Source: Nisaea sediminum | GTDB lineage: Bacteria > Pseudomonadota > Alphaproteobacteria > Thalassobaculales > Thalassobaculaceae | Direction: 5' to 3' | Assembly: GCF_014904705.1 (NCBI RefSeq) | Contig: NZ_JACZCQ010000005.1 | Span: forward strand, 62,001-126,000 | Length of the DNA stretch: 64,000 nucleotides | Shown here: one piece after another, positions 762-26,995 of the stretch | Numbering within the stretch: the stretch's first letter is position 1 | Layout: each line of letters begins with the position of its first letter | The notes under the pieces: generated by a model | What the model saw: the letters and a program-made list of their open reading frames with translations, nothing else | Database searches by the model: none | Told to the model about the DNA's origin: nothing | Program-made: the position numbers and the translations under genes

Positions 762-2926
<2,165 letters not shown>

Positions 2927-2935
2927 CGGGTTCCG

Positions 2936-3511
2936 TTAAGCGGCGGGATCCGCCGCCGGTTCATCCCGCTGGAAACGCTGGGGCAGGACGGCGATGAAGG
3001 CCCGGAACGGGACCAGAAGCACCGCCGCCATGGCGAGCTTCGCGCCGTAGTCCCCGACCGCCCAGGTCACCCAGGGCAGGCCCGTCGCATAGAAAGCGAG
3101 GGAGAAGAAGAGCGCGGTATCCAGCGCGGAGGAGAGCAGCGAAGAGATCAGGGGCGCCTTCCACCAGCTCTGCCGGCGCAGCTTGTCGAACACCCAGATA
3201 TCGAGGAGCTGCGCGGTCAGGAAGGCGGTACCGGAGGCGAGCGCGATGCGCTGGTCCGCAAACCAGAGCGACAGGGCGACGCCGAGCGCGAAGCCGGTAT
3301 AGACGACCTTGCGGGCCGGACCCGGTCCGAAGATACGGTTCACCAGGTCGGTCACCAGGAAGGCGATCGGATAGGTCAGCGCGCCCCAGGTCAGCCAGTC
3401 GTTGATCGGATAGTTGACCGCGATATTGGAGACGAGGACGACGACACCCATGGCGGTCATGCCGGCGATGAGGCCGGTGCGGCCGAACACGGCCGTGTTG
3501 GAAGTGCTCAT
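2936..3511 (-). CDS. yhhQ: Queuosine precursor transporter (YhhQ/VUT family)
   Basis: This 191-residue membrane protein with about six hydrophobic segments belongs to the YhhQ family, whose E. coli member imports preQ0 and preQ1. Characteristic segments include the N-terminal ASNIAV-like stretch VSNIAVNYP, TYPIAFLVTDLVNR and DIWVFDKLRR. It is the first gene of the minus-strand queuosine operon; the ATG at 3511 has a strong AAGGAG at ideal spacing. Placement with queA, tgt and queG supports the precursor-salvage assignment over other VUT transporters. Its 5' leader carries a pair of 20-base direct repeats. Confidence 0.9.
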   Translation of the reverse strand: MSTSNTAVFGRTGLIAGMTAMGVVVLVSNIAVNYPINDWLTWGALTYPIAFLVTDLVNRIFGPGPARKVVYTGFALGVALSLWFADQRIALASGTAFLTAQLLDIWVFDKLRRQSWWKAPLISSLLSSALDTALFFSLAFYATGLPWVTWAVGDYGAKLAMAAVLLVPFRAFIAVLPQRFQRDEPAADPAA

Positions 3512-3829
3512 CGAAGAGCTCCTTTTCTGTTCCTGCCGTCACGGGAAGCCATGCCGGCTTGAAATAGGTCCTGCCGGTGCGGGAAGCCTCACTGGCCGAA
3601 CAGTGCGGCGGGTTTTAGGAGCCTGCTCGCGTTTTGTCGATGGAAATCGATACTCGGGGAAACGGCCCTACGCCCAACCGGACTGTGCAATTTGAGCTTT
3701 CCTTCTCGCGGGTGGCGCGATCAAATGCACTCTACATTTCTCTTGAGGGTGCGCTGCATGCGCGATCCGGCTGCAGTTCCTGACGCCTGAAAGAGATAGG
3801 CATTGGCCGGAGAGAGGCAGAAGGCCTGG
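3512..3829. promoter_or_regulatory. Divergent control region between yhhQ operon and sensor kinase, with direct repeats
   Basis: This 318-base gap separates two divergent transcription units. It contains an imperfect direct repeat at 3531-3550 and 3569-3588 (17 of 20 bases identical, TCCTGCCG...CGGGAAGCC, 38-base period), which on the minus strand lies in the leader of the queuosine operon. Between the repeats the minus strand can form a CCGGC/GCCGG stem. No sequence resembling a known preQ1 riboswitch class was recognised, and no convincing -10/-35 pair was assigned. Function of the repeats is unknown; a repressor site or a leader RNA structure are both possible. Confidence 0.4.
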
Positions 3830-6800
3830 ATGATCTCCTCAGTGAAGCCCGCGCTCCTTGCCGCAATCCTTGCGGCCCTGTTCTACCCATTCATTCTCGC
3901 TCCGGGGTTCGCGCAGAATGTTGAGCCGGTCGCACACCTCGATCTCACAGGCGAAGAACGGGACTGGATCAAGTCGAACCCCGATGTTCTGGTCGCCTTC
4001 GATCCGTTCTATGCGCCGTACAGCTTCCTCGGCAACAAAGGAGGCTATACGGGGCTCGCGCCGGAACTGTTTGCGCAGATCGGCAAATTGACGGGACTGA
4101 ATTTCCGGGCCGCTCAGGTACGCGACTGGAACGACATTCTGGACAAGGCCCGCTCGCGAAACATCGATGTCGTGGCGACCGTCGTCGAGACCGCCGCGCG
4201 GCGCGAATTCCTCGACTTCACCGACCCCTTTCTGCCGACACCGCTCGTCATCATGGCCCGGACCGGCGACTACAGCGTTCTCGGGCCGGAGTCCCTTTCC
4301 GGCAAGACGGTCGCCCTGGTGCGCGGTTATTCGACCACCGACCGGGTTCTGGCGGACCATCCCGACATCATAACGCGCTTCGTCGACTCGCCTCTGGAGG
4401 GACTTCAGGATCTCTCGGTCGGACGCGCTGACGCCTATGTCGGCGTCGTCGGGGTCAATACCTATCTCGTCCGGCACAATGGGCTCGCGAACATCCGGAT
4501 CGCGTCCGAATACGAGCTCGGCCTTGGCGAAACGGCACAAAGCATCGGCATCCGGCCGGATCGGCCGATCCTGAGACGGATCCTGCAGAAGGCGGTTCGC
4601 TCACTTGGGGATGTCCAGCAGACGGTGACCTATCAGAAATGGATACCGATCCTGCAAACCGTGGTCGAGGAGACCAGCAGCGCTCCCTTCGAGTTGACCG
4701 ACGAGGAGCGGGCCTGGCTTCGGAAGTTCGGTCCGATCCGGATCGGCACCAACAACGCCTGGGCGCCTCTCGACTATGCCGATGCCGACGGCAACCCGGA
4801 AGGCATCGGCGCCGGTTTCCTCGAAGCCATCGACCGCAGGTTGGGACATGTGATCGAGATCGTGCCCGGCCCATGGCCGGAGATCTACGCAGCCGCGGAA
4901 ACCGGTGCGCTTGACGGGATCGCGGGCATCACGCCCACGGAGGCCCGGAAGCGGGCCTTCACCTTCACGGATCCCTATATAGAAGTCCCACACGTCATAT
5001 TCGCGCCGGTCGACGAACAGCGGCTCCCGTCCCTCGATGCACTCAGCAACAAACGCGTCGGGATCGAGGCAGGCTTCTTTCTCGGCGACCTGATCGAACA
5101 GCGCTATCCCGGCGTGACGGTCGTCCGTTTCGAGACAACCGGCGACGCGCTGACCGCCGTTTCGAAAGGCGAGGTCGACGCCTATGTCGGCAACCGCGCC
5201 GTCGCGAACTATGCCATTCACGCGGGACTTATCACGAACCTGAAGGAACACGGCACGATCTCGGAAACCTCCTCGATCAACGCCTTCGGCTTCGCAAAGG
5301 GCCGGGAGGTGCTGCGCGACATTTTCCAGAAAGCTCTCGACAGCATTACCGTCCGTGAGAAGCGCCTGATTTCCGGTCAATGGGTTTCTGTCGAGAGAGA
5401 GCGAACACCGTTTTACCTGACACCGGCGGAGCGGCAGTGGCTGCTCCGGCATCCGACGATCCGCGTCGCCGGCGACAGGGACTACGCGCCGATCGAGTTC
5501 ATCGGCGAAGACGGAACCTATCAGGGCCTTGCTCCGGACTTTCTGGCGAAGCTGTCCGAGATGCTCGGCATCAGTTTCGTCTATGACACCAAGTCGAGCT
5601 GGCCCGAAGCTCTGCGCAAGCTCGAGAATCGCGAACTGGATATCGCCTCCGCTGCAGCCGCAACGGATACACGCCGCGCATATGCCAGCTTTACGTCACC
5701 CTATCTCCAGCTCCCTGTCATGATCTTCGGACGGAAGGGCGGCTTCTTCGCGGCGAATCTGGACGATCTCTCAGGCAGAACAGTTGCCGTGGTCCGTGGC
5801 TACGCAGATACCGAACTCGTCATGAGCGGACATCCGGAGCTTTCCTTCGTTCAGGTCGGGACCGTCGCCGAAGGTACCGAACTCCTGCTCGCCGGCCACG
5901 TCGACGCCTTTGTCGGGAGCGTTCTGACGACGGTCCATACGCTCCGCGAAGACGGGAACAACGCGCTCATGGTGATGGGAAAGACCCCGTTCTCCGTCAA
6001 TCTCTCGATCGCCGTAAGGAAGGACTGGCCGGTGTTCACTTCGATCGTCCGCCGGGCGGTCAGCCACCTGTCAGCGACCGAGCGCACCGAGATCGTCAAC
6101 AAATGGATCGGTCTGCGGATCAAGGAGCCGATCGACATGCGGCTGCTGCTGCAGCTCAGCCTCACGGCCTTCGCGATCATGGCCGCGGCGGCGGTCTGGA
6201 TCTATTTCCTCTGGCGCCGGACCCGGACGCAGACGGTGGAACTGGCCGAGAGGAACCTGGCGCTCGCCGAAGAATCCAGGACACGCCTCGCGGCGCAAAG
6301 GATCGCGGAACGCACGACGCAGGAGAAAGATCACCTTCTGGCGAACGTGTCACACGAAATCCGGACTCCGCTAAATGCCATCCTCGGCTATACGGAACTC
6401 CTGCAGGGCCGCATCGCTGCGCTCCGGGCCGGCGGCAAGATCGCCGAATATCTGGATGCATTGCGGATTGCCGGAACGCAGTTGCAGACGATCGTTCAGG
6501 ACCTGCTTGAGCTGGCCGCGAACCGTGGCCGTATCGAACTTGCCGAGGAACAAATCGCTCTCGACACCCTCTTTGCCAATGTACGGAGCCTTCTGGACGC
6601 AACGGCGGGGGAAGAGCCGTCTTGCGTGAAATGGCCGGAGCCGGTGGCCACGACCGTATTGGTGGACCCGCACCGGCTCTCGCAGGTCCTCGTAAATCTG
6701 CTCGACAATGCCCGCAAATTCTCGCCAGCCAATACCGAGGTCACGCTTACCGTTCGCACATGCAGCAACGGCGATCTGGAGATCCTCGTTCAGGATCATG

Positions 6801-7033
6801 GCATCGGAATAGACCCGGATATCCTGGACGATGTGATGGAGCCGTTCGTGCGCGGCGACGATCCCTTCGTGCGGACGTCGCAAGGATCCGGCCTCGGCCT
6901 GTCAATCTGCAAAGCCTTTGTTGAGGCTCATGGCGGCACCATCAGATTGCAGAGTGTCCGCGGCCAAGGCACGACGGCCATCGTACGCTTGCCGAAAAGC
7001 CGGGTCGTCCACCTCGAGCAACCCGCATCATAA
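3830..7033 (+). CDS. Sensor histidine kinase with three tandem solute-binding (SBP_bac_3) domains
   Basis: The 1067-residue protein has a signal peptide (about 1-28), then three periplasmic amino-acid-binding-protein-like domains at about 45-265, 295-512 and 537-755. Each is introduced by the same linker pattern LTxxERxWL (near 38, 288 and 528). One transmembrane helix follows (about 771-796), then a HisKA domain with phospho-acceptor His842 (NVSHEIRTPLNA) and a HATPase with N box NLLDNARKF, DHGIGID and GSGLGLS. There is no receiver domain. The architecture resembles BvgS/EvgS sensors, which normally carry two such domains. The ATG at 3830, preceded by AGAGAGG, is preferred to a TTG 27 bases upstream. 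No response regulator gene lies nearby, so it is an orphan in this window; its ligand is unknown. Confidence 0.9.
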   Translation: MISSVKPALLAAILAALFYPFILAPGFAQNVEPVAHLDLTGEERDWIKSNPDVLVAFDPFYAPYSFLGNKGGYTGLAPELFAQIGKLTGLNFRAAQVRDWNDILDKARSRNIDVVATVVETAARREFLDFTDPFLPTPLVIMARTGDYSVLGPESLSGKTVALVRGYSTTDRVLADHPDIITRFVDSPLEGLQDLSVGRADAYVGVVGVNTYLVRHNGLANIRIASEYELGLGETAQSIGIRPDRPILRRILQKAVRSLGDVQQTVTYQKWIPILQTVVEETSSAPFELTDEERAWLRKFGPIRIGTNNAWAPLDYADADGNPEGIGAGFLEAIDRRLGHVIEIVPGPWPEIYAAAETGALDGIAGITPTEARKRAFTFTDPYIEVPHVIFAPVDEQRLPSLDALSNKRVGIEAGFFLGDLIEQRYPGVTVVRFETTGDALTAVSKGEVDAYVGNRAVANYAIHAGLITNLKEHGTISETSSINAFGFAKGREVLRDIFQKALDSITVREKRLISGQWVSVERERTPFYLTPAERQWLLRHPTIRVAGDRDYAPIEFIGEDGTYQGLAPDFLAKLSEMLGISFVYDTKSSWPEALRKLENRELDIASAAAATDTRRAYASFTSPYLQLPVMIFGRKGGFFAANLDDLSGRTVAVVRGYADTELVMSGHPELSFVQVGTVAEGTELLLAGHVDAFVGSVLTTVHTLREDGNNALMVMGKTPFSVNLSIAVRKDWPVFTSIVRRAVSHLSATERTEIVNKWIGLRIKEPIDMRLLLQLSLTAFAIMAAAAVWIYFLWRRTRTQTVELAERNLALAEESRTRLAAQRIAERTTQEKDHLLANVSHEIRTPLNAILGYTELLQGRIAALRAGGKIAEYLDALRIAGTQLQTIVQDLLELAANRGRIELAEEQIALDTLFANVRSLLDATAGEEPSCVKWPEPVATTVLVDPHRLSQVLVNLLDNARKFSPANTEVTLTVRTCSNGDLEILVQDHGIGIDPDILDDVMEPFVRGDDPFVRTSQGSGLGLSICKAFVEAHGGTIRLQSVRGQGTTAIVRLPKSRVVHLEQPAS

Positions 7034-13221: not shown

Positions 13222-14640
13222 ATGGAACAGATCATCGAAACCGCACCGAGCGTCCGGGCCCCGCATGTCGCCGGTGCCTTCTATCCGGACGCGCCGGATG
13301 CATTGGAAAACATCGTTGCGAACTGCCTGACCAAAGCCGCCGACACCCCGGTGCCGGAAGCGAAGGTCGTGATCGCGCCCCATGCGGGCTACGTCTTCTC
13401 CGGCCCGATCGCCGGGACCGCCTTCAAGCCGCTCGCGAAGCGCCGCGGCACGATCCGCCGCGTGGTCGTTATCGGCCCGGCGCACCGGGTCGGCTTCCGC
13501 GGCCTCGCGACCACCAGCGCCGACGCTTGGGCGACCCCGCTCGGCACCGTGCCCGTCGCCTGGGACGCGCTCCGCACCCTGCTGACACAGCCCGATTTCC
13601 ATGTCTCCGACCAGGTGTTCGAGGGCGAGCACAGCCTCGAGGTCCATGTCCCCTTCCTGCAGCAGGTGCTGGGTGAGTTCGAGATCGTGCCGATCCTCGT
13701 CGGCGAGGCCTCGCCGCAGCAGGTCGCCCGCGCCCTCGACGCGATCTGGGGCGGGCCGGAGACGCTGATCTCGGTCTCCTCCGACCTCTCGCATTTCCTC
13801 GATTACGACACCGCATGCAAACTCGACCGCGAGACGATGAAGCGCATCGAGCTGCTGAAGCTGGAGGAGATCGACGGCAAGGGCGCCTGCGGCCACCGCG
13901 CCATCGCCGGCGCGCTCGCCCTCGCGCGGCGGCACGATCTCCGGATCACCGGGCTCGACACGCGCAATTCCGGCGACACGCGCGGCGGCAAGGACCGGGT
14001 GGTCGGCTACGGCGCGGCGGCGATGGAATTTGCCGGCAGCGCCCGCCTGCCTGCCTCCGACCGCGAACAGCTGATCGAGGCGGCGCGCTTCTCTCTGCGT
14101 TTTGGTGCCGAGAACGGACGCCCGCCGGAAGCAGAGCTCGGCCGGAATCTCTCCCCAAGCCTGACCGCGATGCGGGCCAGCTTCGTCACGGTGAATATCG
14201 CGGGCAAGCTGCGCGGCTGCATCGGCAGCGTGATCGCGCACCAGCCGCTGCTGCTCGACGTCATCACCAACGCCTACAAGGCCGGCTTCGGCGACCCGCG
14301 TTTCCCGCCGCTGACGATGGAAGAGCTGCAGAGCGCCGACATCCACGTCTCCATCCTCTCCACCCCAAGGCCACTTGCCTTCAATGGCGAGAAAGACCTG
14401 ATCGCCAAGGCGCGCCCGGATGTCGACGGGCTGATCCTGCAGGACGGCAACAGGCGCGGCCTCTTCCTGCCGAGCGTCTGGGAAGGTCTGCCGAAATCGG
14501 AGGATTTCATCCGCAACCTGAAGCGCAAGGCGGGCCTGCCGATGGATTACTGGTCGGACGGGGTCCGGGTCTTCCGCTACACGACAGAGTCGTTCGGCGC
14601 GCCCTTCGCGGCGGCCGAAGCCGCGATCGAAACGGCGTAA
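13222..14640 (+). CDS. AmmeMemoRadiSam proteins B and A fused (Memo-like plus AMMECR1)
   Basis: The 472-residue product joins a Memo-like domain (about 10-270, including VIAPHAGYVFSGPIAG, EHSLEVHVPFLQ and SVSSDLSHF, histidine-rich as in the dioxygenase-like Memo fold) to an AMMECR1 domain (about 280-472, with the family signature KLRGCIGSV). The system is known from comparative genomics as three genes; here two are one polypeptide, supporting physical association of A and B. The ATG at 13222 is the first in the family's expected position but has only a weak AAAGA ribosome site. The next gene begins six bases after its stop. A degenerate copy of its last 120 bases recurs at 15383-15513. Confidence 0.9.
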   Translation: MEQIIETAPSVRAPHVAGAFYPDAPDALENIVANCLTKAADTPVPEAKVVIAPHAGYVFSGPIAGTAFKPLAKRRGTIRRVVVIGPAHRVGFRGLATTSADAWATPLGTVPVAWDALRTLLTQPDFHVSDQVFEGEHSLEVHVPFLQQVLGEFEIVPILVGEASPQQVARALDAIWGGPETLISVSSDLSHFLDYDTACKLDRETMKRIELLKLEEIDGKGACGHRAIAGALALARRHDLRITGLDTRNSGDTRGGKDRVVGYGAAAMEFAGSARLPASDREQLIEAARFSLRFGAENGRPPEAELGRNLSPSLTAMRASFVTVNIAGKLRGCIGSVIAHQPLLLDVITNAYKAGFGDPRFPPLTMEELQSADIHVSILSTPRPLAFNGEKDLIAKARPDVDGLILQDGNRRGLFLPSVWEGLPKSEDFIRNLKRKAGLPMDYWSDGVRVFRYTTESFGAPFAAAEAAIETA

Positions 14641-14645
14641 CACGG

Positions 14646-15338
14646 ATGAGCGCGCCAGCCGCGATGCCGAACTGGCACCTCCATCACATGAACGCTCTCG
14701 GCAAGCTCGACGCGCTGATGGGACCCGTCGAAGCTGCGGCAACGGATACCTACGGCCGTATTGCCCGCGTCTTCGAGCCTCCCGTCGTCGACATTCTGGT
14801 GCAGGCCGTATGGCAAAGCTCGGTGATCCCCGACCGCGGTCATACCGGCTTCGGCAACGAGGACTTGGTCACGCTCTGGCTCGCCCCCGGCCACCCGAAG
14901 CTCGAAGAGAATCTCGGCGAACCGCTGGCGAGGACCGTGGCGCACGAAATCAATCATGTGATGCGCTTCCGTTCGGCCGGAGGAACGAGAACGCTCGGGG
15001 ACCATCTGGTCTGCGAGGGGCTTGCCGGACGGTTCGTTGAGCAGCTTTTCGGCAATGTGCCGGAACCTTGGGAATGCGCCCTCTCTCCTCAGGAGCTCGC
15101 GCAGTATGTGTCGCGCGCACTCGAATGTTTCGACATTCCGGCCGGATACCGCTCGGAAGAGATCAGCATGCATGAATGGATGTTCGGCTCGGGGGACCTG
15201 CCATCCTGGCTGGGTTATACGCTCGGATACGAAATAATCGGCGCTTATCTCAAGGCGCGACCGGAGCTACAGGCCTCCGACCTGATTTCGATCCCAAGCG
15301 CCGACTTCAAACCCGCGCTGGCGGGACTGACCAGCTAA
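14646..15338 (+). CDS. Putative zinc metallopeptidase (DUF2268-like), copy 1
   Basis: The 230-residue protein has a zincin motif HEINH at residues 100-104 and a downstream glutamate in CEGLAGRFVEQLF, the pattern of DUF2268-type putative zinc proteases. No signal peptide is visible, so it should act in the cytoplasm. It starts six bases after the Memo-AMMECR1 stop and is probably co-translated with it. It is paralogous to the gene at 15599-16252, about half of aligned residues being identical, including VAHEIxHxMR, EGLAGRFVE and the C-terminal SAxFKP. Its TAA stop overlaps the stop of a cyclase-gene fossil on the other strand. Substrate unknown. Confidence 0.75.
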   Translation: MSAPAAMPNWHLHHMNALGKLDALMGPVEAAATDTYGRIARVFEPPVVDILVQAVWQSSVIPDRGHTGFGNEDLVTLWLAPGHPKLEENLGEPLARTVAHEINHVMRFRSAGGTRTLGDHLVCEGLAGRFVEQLFGNVPEPWECALSPQELAQYVSRALECFDIPAGYRSEEISMHEWMFGSGDLPSWLGYTLGYEIIGAYLKARPELQASDLISIPSADFKPALAGLTS

Positions 15339-15381
15339 TCCGGCTTCCCCGGCAAGGCGACGAGTTCCTTCGACCAGACCG
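15335..15381 (-). pseudogene. Fossil of the cyclase gene 3' end
   Basis: These 47 bases match the last 47 bases of the cyclase gene (16249-16295) at about 45 positions. Read on the minus strand they still encode LPVWSKELVALPGKPD and a TAG stop, identical to the intact protein's C-terminus. Nothing else of the cyclase gene is present; the sequence switches directly to AMMECR1-derived sequence. It is the right-hand end of duplication unit 1. Confidence 0.8.
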
Positions 15382-15382
15382 G

Positions 15383-15513
15383 AAGCGCAAGGCAGGCCTG
15401 CCGACAGATCGGCGACCGAATGGAATTCGAGTCTTCCACTACACATGTACCAATAGATGACTGAAGCCTCCGGGGCGCCCTTCGCGGCAGCCACGGAAAT
15501 GAGCCCTGTCTAA
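15383..15513 (+). pseudogene. Fossil of the Memo-AMMECR1 gene 3' end
   Basis: The sequence aligns with 14521-14640, the last 120 bases of the fusion gene. Recognisable coding remains are KRKAGLP, then IRVFHYT (intact: VRVFRYT), then after an insertion of about eleven bases GAPFAA in another frame, ending in TAA at 15511-15513. The reading frame is broken and no start exists, so it cannot be expressed as protein. It is the left-hand end of duplication unit 2 and lies 85 bases before peptidase copy 2. Confidence 0.75.
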
Positions 15514-15598
15514 ACCGATGCGACGACGGCGTCCGACGCTGAGCGAAGAACGACAGCAAAGGTTGCATTTATTTTCTTTTCACATCTAAATCCTGCGC

Positions 15599-16252
15599 AT
15601 GACTTGGCAGCTTCATTACCTTGATGCTCATCATCGGACCACACTGTTCCGATCCGCGATCGAATCAGCATTGAACGATGTCGAGACGCGATTGCGTGGT
15701 GTCTGCGAGCCGCCAATCGTCGACATCGTTGTCCGGCCTGTTCCAAATTCATGGGTCATCCCCGAAAAAGGACATTCCGGTCGTTGCAGCGGCGAGATCA
15801 TTGATCTTTATTTGGCTCCGGAACATCCGCTCCTCCCTGAGAATCTCGGGTGCTCCCTGTCCCGGATGGTAGCGCACGAAATTCATCACGCGATGCGCTA
15901 TCAGAGCATCGGATTACCAAAGACTTTAGGCGACTTGCTCGTGTCAGAAGGTTTGGCAGGAAGATTCGTGGAAGAACTCTTCCAGAGCGAACCAGAGCCT
16001 TGGGAACGGGCGATTTCCAAGTCGGAGCTAAGGCACTACGTCCCACTCACCCAATCCCAATTCGACGATGAAGAGTTCGACGACTGGAAGTGGATGATGG
16101 GAAGCGCTGAACTACCGCGCTGGCTCGGTTACTCGCTCGGCTATGCGTTGGTTGGCCAGTATATCGACGATCATCCGGACGCTCGTGCATCGACACTGGT
16201 CGCCACCCCGAGTGCCAACTTCAAGCCATTTCTCGCGAAACTCGCTGCCTAA
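15599..16252 (+). CDS. Putative zinc metallopeptidase (DUF2268-like), copy 2
   Basis: The 217-residue paralogue of the gene at 14646 keeps the zincin motif HEIHH (93-97) and the glutamate motif SEGLAGRFVEELF, so is probably active. It lacks a short stretch before the WMMGSAELP segment compared with copy 1. The ATG at 15599 has no clear ribosome site. Base composition is visibly less GC-rich than the neighbours and codon choice differs (TTT, ATT, TTA codons), hinting at relaxed selection or transfer from a relative. The TAA stop overlaps the convergent cyclase stop. Substrate unknown. Confidence 0.72.
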   Translation: MTWQLHYLDAHHRTTLFRSAIESALNDVETRLRGVCEPPIVDIVVRPVPNSWVIPEKGHSGRCSGEIIDLYLAPEHPLLPENLGCSLSRMVAHEIHHAMRYQSIGLPKTLGDLLVSEGLAGRFVEELFQSEPEPWERAISKSELRHYVPLTQSQFDDEEFDDWKWMMGSAELPRWLGYSLGYALVGQYIDDHPDARASTLVATPSANFKPFLAKLAA

Positions 16253-17565
16253 TCCGGCTTCCCCGGCAGGGCGACGAGCTCCTTCGACCAGACCGGGAGC
16301 GGCGTCTCGAAGCCCCGGACCCGGTACTCGCCGAGAGGCTTCAGCCGGTCCTCCGGTTTCGATTTCTCCGCCACGCCGGCATCGGCGAGCACTGTCGCGC
16401 CGACCTCCTTGGCGAGAACCTCGAAGCGGGCGGCGCGATTGACCGTGTCGCCATAGATCGTGAAGGCCTGCCGACGCTCGGACCCCACACGGCCGGTCGC
16501 GATCGGTCCGGCGGCGAGCCCGATACGAACGTGGAAACCGTTCTCCTCCGCCGCGGCCAGAAGATCCGAAGCCGCGTCGAGTGCCGCCCGTTCCGGATCC
16601 TTGATCTCGAGCGGCGTGTTGAAGGCGGCCAGCAGCCCGTCGCCGGTGAAGCTGATCACCACGCCCTCACGGGCGGAAATCACGTCGGAGGCATCGGCGA
16701 GGAAGGTGCCGAGGGTCTTGATCACCTCCGCCGGATCGCGCCCGTCCGCATAGTCGGTGAAATCCTGGATATCGAGCACCAGCGCGACGCCGTGGCGGAC
16801 CTGCGGCTTGAGAACGCCGCGGTCCGCCGCCAGCCGCTCGGCGATGGTCTCAGGCACGAAACGGCCGAAGGTCCGTACCATCTGCTCGCGGGCGATCTCG
16901 GCGCCGACCTGAGCGACGAAAACCTGCCGCGCCCGGTAGACCGCGAGGGCAAGGATCATGGTCGCCATCAGCAACAAGCCGGTTTCCTGGATCCGGCTGC
17001 CATAGCCGACGAAATCCGGAGACAGGAAGACCGAGAGGAACTGCTCCTCGGTTGCCTCGTGCGGCAGATCGCTCCAGGAGATGCGCCGCTCCATCCCAGC
17101 GATCGCGATCCCGAACGCGCCCAACCAGCCGACGATGGCCACCAGCCCGGACCAGGCGACGAGGCGCCAGGACAACGTCAGACAGGCCATCGCCACCAGG
17201 GGAAAGAGAAAATAGATGCCGAAGGAGCGGAACGCGATCACCTGCGGCAGGCCGGGCGCGGTGTTGCTCACCGGGATGATGACAAGGAAGGCGCAGACCC
17301 CGACGATGTCGACGGCATAGAGCGCGTATTTCAGCCACCAGCGATCGAACCGGGTTCCGATGACGGAATAGCTCGCGATGCCGAGCAGCGCGTAGAGAGA
17401 GAGCGCCGTAAGCCCGAGCGCGCTCGGTGTCGCGCCGACGGCACTCCAGGCAAGGATGAACCAGGCGATACCCGCGGCAACGGCAGCGGTCCGGCAAAGG
17501 ATGGCCAGTTTCCATCCCTGCCGCTCCGCGACCCTGAGGCGCGCCAGCGCTTTGCGATCAACCAT
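16249..17565 (-). CDS. Membrane-bound class III adenylate/guanylate cyclase
   Basis: The 438-residue protein has about six transmembrane segments in the first 215 residues and a C-terminal class III cyclase domain. Metal-binding aspartates are visible in VLDIQDFTDYAD and SFTGDGLLAAF, and the transition-state Asn/Arg pair in YGDTVNRAARFE. It should make cyclic AMP (or GMP) at the inner membrane face in response to an unknown signal sensed by the membrane domain. The ATG at 17565 is preceded by GGGG. The 3' end converges on peptidase copy 2 with overlapping stop codons, and a copy of that end is fossilised at 15335-15381. Confidence 0.88.
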   Translation of the reverse strand: MVDRKALARLRVAERQGWKLAILCRTAAVAAGIAWFILAWSAVGATPSALGLTALSLYALLGIASYSVIGTRFDRWWLKYALYAVDIVGVCAFLVIIPVSNTAPGLPQVIAFRSFGIYFLFPLVAMACLTLSWRLVAWSGLVAIVGWLGAFGIAIAGMERRISWSDLPHEATEEQFLSVFLSPDFVGYGSRIQETGLLLMATMILALAVYRARQVFVAQVGAEIAREQMVRTFGRFVPETIAERLAADRGVLKPQVRHGVALVLDIQDFTDYADGRDPAEVIKTLGTFLADASDVISAREGVVISFTGDGLLAAFNTPLEIKDPERAALDAASDLLAAAEENGFHVRIGLAAGPIATGRVGSERRQAFTIYGDTVNRAARFEVLAKEVGATVLADAGVAEKSKPEDRLKPLGEYRVRGFETPLPVWSKELVALPGKPD

Positions 17566-17627
17566 TCCCCGGTCTCCGGCGAAGGTGCGGGATGCACCCC
17601 GAAAGGGGGAATGTGGCGACTGGGGCC

Positions 17628-25174: not shown

Positions 25175-25927
25175 TCAACGTGCGAAAAAGATATTCCGAC
25201 TATAACCATTGCGATGTACGAAACCCAGTTCGACATCTTCATGAAAGCCTGCTTTCTGCAAATCGCGCCTGAGATCGCGGTGCTGATCGATCTGATCCGA
25301 CAGCTCGATATTGATTCCCCGCAGGCGGGGATCGTCGAGCAACTTTCCGAGCCCTGACACAACAAGATGTTCGAGGCCGTCTACATCGATCTTGATAAAG
25401 GTTGGCGCCGCGACATTGTAGCTCGAGGCGAAATCTTCGAGCCGCATCGAAAAAACCCCCTGACGGAAATCAGGCTCTACCGGGTTCAGCGCTTCATCCA
25501 GAGATTCTCCGACGGAATGCCCGCTGCTTCCCGCCTCTCGGTTTCTGGCGAAAAGAATGCTCAGGCCGGTATGATCCAGAGCTCCGAGACAATATGGGAT
25601 CACCCTTCCGCTGAGGCCGTTCAACATGACGTTGCTGCATAGGAGCGCGAAGTTCCGCCCATCCGGCTCAATTGCATAACACTGCGCCCCACGCACTTTG
25701 GCCGCATAGATGCTGTAGGTGCCTACATTGGCTCCGACGTCATAAAGCACGTCGTCGGGAGAAAGCCTGTCGAGCCAGCGGATCGTCCCAGGTTCCTTGG
25801 ATAACAACGTCCTCGCCCTGTAGTCCGCGATTCTAGATGAACAATCGAACGATATCTCGACGTCACTCAGGACGATTTTACGGACCGGCCGCGTATTCCA
25901 GAATTCTTCAAGTCTTCCGGCCTTCAA
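25175..25927 (-). CDS. FkbM family methyltransferase
   Basis: The 250-residue protein has the SAM-binding motif VLYDVGANVGTYS (about 60-72), the acidic ribose-binding IEPDG and the FkbM-type core IKIDVDGLEHLVVSG. FkbM enzymes O-methylate sugars in polysaccharides and natural products; the target here is unknown. GC content is visibly lower than in surrounding genes, suggesting recent acquisition. It lies 60 bases downstream of the oxygenase gene on the same strand, so they may form a unit. Confidence 0.85.
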   Translation of the reverse strand: MKAGRLEEFWNTRPVRKIVLSDVEISFDCSSRIADYRARTLLSKEPGTIRWLDRLSPDDVLYDVGANVGTYSIYAAKVRGAQCYAIEPDGRNFALLCSNVMLNGLSGRVIPYCLGALDHTGLSILFARNREAGSSGHSVGESLDEALNPVEPDFRQGVFSMRLEDFASSYNVAAPTFIKIDVDGLEHLVVSGLGKLLDDPRLRGINIELSDQIDQHRDLRRDLQKAGFHEDVELGFVHRNGYSRNIFFAR

Positions 25928-25987
25928 GCCCGTTCTCCCGAAACGATCATCACGGCCGCTTCCGCGAACCGTCAGATATCAATTTGG

Positions 25988-26827
25988 CTAGGCCAGTAAT
26001 GCCTTGGCTCTTGCTTCGACGGCATCCCAGCTATTGTCCTCGCCTTCCTCGCGGTAACGAAGCGTCATCACGACGGCTCGGCGCGAGAGGCCTTCCGGTG
26101 CGCGAATACGCCCGATGGCATGGAACGAGTCCACCGATTTACAGAACATGCATGCTGTATTCGGTGCGTAGCTCGAGACGAAGAACGGTTCGGTATCCTG
26201 CCAGAACCGGTCAAGCACCTCCCGGGGCACTCGGTTCATGTTCGGGTCGAACCAGTCGGGTTTCCGTCCATCGCGAAACCGAAAGAAATACGTGCCGCCC
26301 CCATATTCCTTCCGCCAACCCTCCTGAGGAAAATAGAAGAGTATGGTGGCAATCTTACTCACCGTATCTGTGTGGGGTGAATTGAACTGACCATTGGCGA
26401 GACGTGCGAACTGCAGTCCCAACGTCATTCTTTCGTCGATGAGGTCCAGGAACCTACTTTCTTCGGAAAGCCGCTCGGAGAAATCACGCGGCAATCGCGG
26501 CGGGATTTTCGAAGCATCCCTGTACCGCTTCAGTCCGGGATACACGAGCCGGCCCACGCAACGCGCGAATTCTCGATTCAGCGTGCCTTTTACAAACTCC
26601 GACCAGGCCTTGGACTTCTTGGCGACGGCGAAAAAACCTTCATCCGACGAGCTCGCCGCAATCTTGCGATCGAGCCCGCCTTGCTCTCCCCAATGTTCGT
26701 TGGGGACAGGGAATTCGTCGCTGAGCCGGGTATAGAAATCGCCCGGGAAGACATCGCTGAACTGACGAACGAAGAAAGGGTCGTCGAACTTGACGAGTCC
26801 GTCCTCTTTAAACTGAGGAATGGGCAT
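25988..26827 (-). CDS. Putative 2-oxoglutarate/Fe(II)-dependent oxygenase
   Basis: The 279-residue protein shows the 2OG-Fe(II) facial triad pattern: H152-x-D154 in NSPHTDTVSK, and distal H236 in SVDSFHAIGRIR followed 13-14 residues later by the arginine pair in GLSRRAVVMTLRYRE that would hold 2-oxoglutarate. EYGGGTYFFRFRDG between them fits the barrel. It would hydroxylate an unknown substrate. The ATG at 26827 has GGAGAG upstream and is preferred to one at 26857. With the FkbM gene it suggests a small tailoring pair inserted beside secA. Confidence 0.75.
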   Translation of the reverse strand: MPIPQFKEDGLVKFDDPFFVRQFSDVFPGDFYTRLSDEFPVPNEHWGEQGGLDRKIAASSSDEGFFAVAKKSKAWSEFVKGTLNREFARCVGRLVYPGLKRYRDASKIPPRLPRDFSERLSEESRFLDLIDERMTLGLQFARLANGQFNSPHTDTVSKIATILFYFPQEGWRKEYGGGTYFFRFRDGRKPDWFDPNMNRVPREVLDRFWQDTEPFFVSSYAPNTACMFCKSVDSFHAIGRIRAPEGLSRRAVVMTLRYREEGEDNSWDAVEARAKALLA

Positions 26828-26995
26828 TCGCTTCTCTCCGTATCGAACAGACACCATCGAATGCTAGTCACACTATTAGATTATTCCCGTCAAGCTACGC
26901 GACCGGTAACGTGTTTGCCGCCCTTACCGGCTGCGAACGCGGTTCAAGTTGTGGAGATCTGGACGGTTGAAGTGCCGCAGGCACGCCGGGCCGCG

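Follow-up and report, generated by a model that had tools for sequence, protein, structure and literature searches.

Two diverged peptidase genes side by side in Nisaea: probably old alleles spliced end to end

The locus

The window, by which we mean the whole 64-kb stretch of DNA analysed, comes from a Nisaea genome of the family Thalassobaculaceae, and was compared with four congeners, G001 to G004, of which G002 is Nisaea denitrificans DSM 18348. Its gene order at the locus described here is Memo-AMMECR1, a first peptidase gene (pep1), a 260-base spacer, a second peptidase gene (pep2) and then, on the other strand, an adenylate/guanylate cyclase gene (Table 1). The spacer holds relics, or ‘fossils’, of the 3' ends of both flanking genes. 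The stop codons of the cyclase and pep2 overlap each other, and the cyclase fossil overlaps the stop codon of pep1 likewise. A scan of 14500-16400 revealed neither a sigma-70-like promoter nor anything like a terminator.

Table 1. Features of the AMMECR1-cyclase locus, in window coordinates
Feature	Position	Strand	Basis
Memo-AMMECR1 fusion gene, left neighbour, intact	13222-14640	+	PF01875 + PF01871
AMMECR1 3' end, intact source of the AMMECR1 fossil	14515-14640	+	self-alignment
pep1, predicted DUF2268 zinc peptidase, 230 aa, GC3 74%	14646-15338	+	PF10026, HEINH motif
Cyclase 3'-end fossil, overlapping pep1 stop codon	15335-15382	-	45/47 vs own cyclase
Junction microhomology GAAGCG	15382-15387	.	
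AMMECR1 3'-end fossil, decayed, 14-base insertion, in-frame stop	15383-15513	+	
pep2, predicted DUF2268 zinc peptidase, 217 aa, GC3 60%	15599-16252	+	PF10026
Adenylate/guanylate cyclase gene, right neighbour, intact	16249-17565	-	PF00211

Proteins of the DUF2268 family are predicted zinc peptidases, with an HExxH motif and a glutamate downstream of it. Against the PF10026 (DUF2268) profile the two peptidases score 102.8 and 98.7 bits (cut-off 23.6), and the motif is intact in both: HEINH with CEGLA in pep1, HEIHH with SEGLA in pep2. An earlier note on this DNA had described two HExxH peptidase genes in tandem, and such they are predicted to be, as members of DUF2268; a sequence search of solved structures with them gave no match at E 0.01. 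They share 49% of their residues.

The gene-end fossils and their junction

Bases 15336-15382 match the 3' end of the window's own cyclase at 45 of 47 positions, and their minus strand reads PVWSKELVALPGKPD-stop. The local score of this match is 84, and the maximum among 500 dinucleotide shuffles is 35. The second fossil is more worn. Its local alignment pairs 15378-15492 with 14516-14616: of 101 aligned bases 77 are identical, a further 14 are inserted, and the score is 51 (maximum 30 among 500 dinucleotide shuffles); aligned to its end, it is identical to the window's own AMMECR1 at 82 of 125. It is also patchy, with about 20 scrambled bases and the 14-base insertion lying between segments of higher identity. 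Neither match is due to chance. Both fossil segments thus align significantly when the locus is compared with itself, and the earlier note placed both relics—the cyclase end with its minus-strand reading, and the decayed AMMECR1 end—correctly to within a few bases. It was right, too, that the breakpoints fall inside both neighbouring genes, that those genes are intact, and that the unit measures about 0.9 kb.

The fossils meet in GAAGCG, a sequence common to AMMECR1 and to the cyclases of G001 and G004, which read GGAAGCG. In the window's cyclase the corresponding bases are today GGGAGCG, a difference of one, and so it has only AGCG in common at the junction. Taking GAAGCG as the junction homology therefore presumes that the parental cyclase read GGAAGCG, as those of G001 and G004 do. 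The earlier note had proposed AAGCG: microhomology there is, of GAAGCG with the presumed parental cyclase and of AGCG with the present one, but not of that exact extent.

A variable slot

Over most of the window G004 is the closest congener (about 92%), followed by G001 (about 84%) and then by G002 and G003. The Memo-AMMECR1 protein is 95% identical to that of G004 and 83-86% identical to those of G001-G003, and dS in AMMECR1 is 0.34 to G004 and 0.51-0.66 to the other three. Between AMMECR1 and the cyclase, the five Nisaea genomes have two, one, one, no and no DUF2268 genes; the slot is variable within the genus. G001 has the single-copy order that the earlier note had suggested looking for in a relative: some 40 bases separate AMMECR1 from a lone peptidase gene, and the stop codon of the cyclase that comes next overlaps that of the peptidase. 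The slot of G004 is nearly empty, with about 10 bases between AMMECR1 and cyclase. Inspection of these two loci, in G001 and G004, showed no fossil. In G003 the slot spans about 300 bases, contains repeats and gives no match to the peptidase; by eye, repeated GTCATCCCTGGGTCCCC-like elements are seen there (L029, about 2480-2760, minus strand). N. denitrificans (L028, about 2375-3460, minus strand) has one peptidase, a 77-base cyclase fossil, about 1 kb of other DNA, and then the cyclase, so that gene-end fossils occur separately in this genome and in the window. Its fossil matches the cyclase of G003 in 70 of 77 columns and its own cyclase in 58 of 69. Within the 1 kb behind the fossil is a 187-aa open frame that looks, by eye, like a GNAT acetyltransferase.

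Outside Nisaea the arrangement was not encountered. The pep1 query had matches in five of 81 genomes, the window's own included, and the pep2 query in five of 385 genomes of the class, again including its own, with the other four at 33-36%. Among the best 80 of 101 peptidase relatives, AMMECR1 or the cyclase occurs within flanks of up to 4 kb in N. denitrificans (L035) alone. Thirteen other genomes of the family contributed 14 AMMECR1 loci, whose flanks, taken to at most 1.5 kb, contain neither cyclase nor peptidase at E 1e-4. The peptidase is matched by 147 plasmid records, every one of them below 60% identity.

Relationship of the two peptidases

The earlier note explained the locus as one gene duplicated head to tail. 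Tandem duplication at short homologies produces a head-to-tail unit, truncated neighbours at the join, and copies that are each other's closest relatives. The Nisaea locus shares with it the truncated neighbour ends at the join, and differs in that the copies are not closest relatives. In trees of the peptidases, pep1 clusters with those of G001 and G002 and pep2 falls outside, with support of 100/97 in a 73-row tree and 99/99 in a 22-row tree. The first comprises 69 of the 80 peptidase loci and four Nisaea rows, leaving out L035 (the same genome as G002) and loci of at most 180 aa; the second comprises 18 near rows chosen by hand and the same number of Nisaea rows. The approximately unbiased (AU) test rejects a clade of pep1 and pep2 (p 0.004), as well as a tree constrained to join pep2 with G002 (p 0.008), and does not reject one that joins pep1 with G001 (p 0.22). 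The branch leading to pep2 is long—0.46 in the larger tree, 0.43 in the smaller—as it would be had pep2 diverged very fast after a plain duplication.

Four-fold sites speak to this last point, being unresponsive to selection on the protein. Between pep1 and pep2 only 20 of 59 are identical (chance, from composition, 27%), corresponding to a dS of 2.5 (2.47) and close to saturation. Among all peptidase pairs the smallest dS is 1.43 (G001-G002), and among pairs with pep2 it is 1.98. GC3 differs as well, at 60% in pep2 and 74% in pep1. Pep1 and the peptidase of G001 are themselves far apart, with 33 of 80 four-fold sites identical; set against the 41 window ORFs that have 40 or more such sites, only one value would be lower (0.39), a rough control because several of the 41 are shadow frames. 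That these two are unusually old alleles has no more than moderate support.

The age of the join

A duplication makes the genes and their join one age, and here they disagree. If the cyclase fossil dated from the time at which the peptidases split, its 45/47 would have a Jukes-Cantor probability of 2e-10 (dS 1.43) to 3e-16 (dS 2.47); a neutral fossil of that age would keep about 40-54% identity. The observed divergence of the cyclase fossil fits, instead, the timescale of the G004 split. A single duplication of about 0.9 kb at GAAGCG within one genome, with pep2 then diverging very fast, would predict exactly the structure seen, with fossils of both neighbours and a single-copy relative in G001. 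The nearly saturated four-fold sites set against so well preserved a fossil, the rejection of pep1 and pep2 as sisters, and the difference in GC3 make it very unlikely nonetheless. The earlier observation is confirmed, in short, and the earlier interpretation is half right: divergence of the peptidase copies most likely preceded their joining.

The cyclase fossil also hints at where the join was made. At two sites it carries the base of the window's cyclase where G001 and G004 both have another, which suggests that the join took place in the window's own lineage; only these two sites link it to that cyclase. One base of the fossil, within the microhomology, matches G001 and G004 and not the window's cyclase, and may derive from AMMECR1.

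The AMMECR1 fossil is weaker evidence of age: for a fossil as old as the peptidase split, its 82/125 has p 0.005 (dS 1.43), 3e-6 (1.98) or 3e-9 (2.47). Taken whole, it has also changed too much for the join to be no older than the split from G004 (p 9e-8 at dS 0.34), and at 86/125 it is slightly closer to the gene of G004 than to the window's own; for these two reasons its age or source is unsettled. It is more diverged than the cyclase fossil, both in full alignments (47/51 versus 82/125, Fisher p 2e-4) and in local ones (44/47, counted by hand, versus 77/101, p 0.01). Once the scrambled patch and the indel are set aside, post hoc, the difference is no longer significant (44/47 versus 68/81, both hand counts, p 0.17). 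A neutral model with one age for both fossils was rejected in its simple form; it accommodates the AMMECR1 fossil only if the patch and the insertion are single events, a choice made post hoc.

This unequal decay is what would be expected had the gene been duplicated long ago in the Nisaea ancestor and lost elsewhere, the cyclase fossil having been kept alike by gene conversion, and the position of pep2 below the clade of pep1, G001 and G002 is likewise that of an old paralogue. Such a history is highly improbable, requiring as it does a 47-base conversion tract and several losses, and an AMMECR1 fossil that retained 82/125 identity over a time that nearly saturated the four-fold sites; nor was a trace of fossils seen in G001 or G004. 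Fossils of different age or source would be permitted, too, by a true tandem duplication, after which ordinary homologous recombination in the flanks exchanged one copy for a diverged allele. The end structure would be the same, the slot is variable within the genus, and for the replacement of pep2 a long arm is available on the right in the cyclase. We nevertheless regard this as unlikely, since it needs two events where one suffices, and no intermediate was seen in the five Nisaea genomes.

How the alleles might have been joined

The origin that we consider probable is the end-to-end splicing of two old alleles belonging to one slot, rather than the copying of one gene. The structure, the fossils, the microhomology, the mismatch of ages and the tree are the observed parts of this account. 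Two haplotypes, AMMECR1-pep1-cyclase and AMMECR1-pep2-cyclase, their peptidases long diverged, would have met in one cell. The incoming fragment most likely ran from an AMMECR1 3' end through pep1 and 47 bases into the cyclase 3' end. Homologous recombination with the resident AMMECR1 would have anchored it on the left, and its free right end would have joined at GAAGCG within the resident AMMECR1 3' end, an instance of homology-facilitated illegitimate recombination. This would have displaced the resident AMMECR1 tail and pep2 downstream, the tail to decay and both peptidases to remain open. That the pep1 haplotype was the one to come in, that homology anchored it on the left, and that DNA uptake was its source are points that we infer. 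A transient circle of the unit, integrated by a single crossover, would be an alternative route to the same product. Part of the pattern could also come from a faster clock in pep2, or from gene conversion acting on the 47-base fossil, and no single-allele strain of the window's own species was seen among the genomes compared. The content of the N. denitrificans slot (peptidase, cyclase fossil, other DNA) would fit the same left-anchored scheme, making two cases.

Attempts to tell donor from recipient by a step in identity within AMMECR1 or the cyclase gave nothing clear. Compared with G004 in 200-base windows, AMMECR1 shows no such step, and a conspecific donor would leave none. In the N-terminal half of the cyclase (16801-17600), identity to G004 drops to 78-84% and that to G001 holds at 79-87%, with flanks at about 90% to G004; recombination or fast evolution is possible there.

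More speculatively, and with considerable doubt, the AMMECR1-cyclase gap may be a slot without an integrase where diverged peptidase alleles are swapped and stacked time and again in Nisaea, with the conserved neighbours as anchors for recombination, each stacking leaving a datable gene-end fossil. If so, the fossils could reveal the order and source of transfers.

Parallels and meaning

The splicing mechanism has been proposed elsewhere. For the effector-immunity arrays of the Vibrio cholerae type VI secretion system (T6SS), Kirchberger et al. (2017, PMC5361080) propose that a conserved upstream region serves as a homologous anchor and that the other end of the incoming module is attached by an illegitimate join. 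The old gene is pushed downstream, with a displaced 3' end in one proposed step, and diverged homologues are left in a row. The Nisaea locus resembles these arrays, as they are described there, in its proposed mechanism—anchor, illegitimate join and downstream displacement—and differs from them in comprising a single predicted peptidase gene, with both flanking genes intact and no known conflict function. In homology-facilitated illegitimate recombination, as outlined in PMC3240628, one end is homologous and the other is joined elsewhere, as proposed here; unlike that recombination, the Nisaea event is deduced from one product rather than observed. Merodiploids formed by transformation of Streptococcus pneumoniae (Johnston et al. 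2013, PMC3784515) also carry tandem alleles after DNA uptake. The model presented there involves repeats, and its units of self DNA are mostly large, with one small duplication, of 3.3 kb, reported without flanking repeats. Two tandem alleles are common to both; in Nisaea the unit is about 0.9 kb, the alleles are diverged and the join is at microhomology. A limited literature search (Nisaea; xenologous or joined copies) found no description of the Nisaea locus.

Adjacent homologous genes in bacteria are readily labelled tandem duplicates. Fossils of the neighbours provide an internal clock, and it is the disagreement of that clock with the pep1/pep2 pair that makes the pair look like joined alleles. 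Setting the age of a fossil against that of the copies could be applied to other adjacent pairs, to distinguish duplication from acquisition.

Other variable stretches of the window

Two further stretches differ among the congeners. At 4001-7000 lies a long gene (3803-7033; sensor-kinase-like by eye) that is 70-74% identical to G001, with no alignment to the matching stretches of G002, G003 and G004. At 25175-26857, two open frames align well only to G004 (79-84% at the DNA level), and G001-G003 align over at most 10%; the first of the two resembles, by eye, an FkbM-type methyltransferase.
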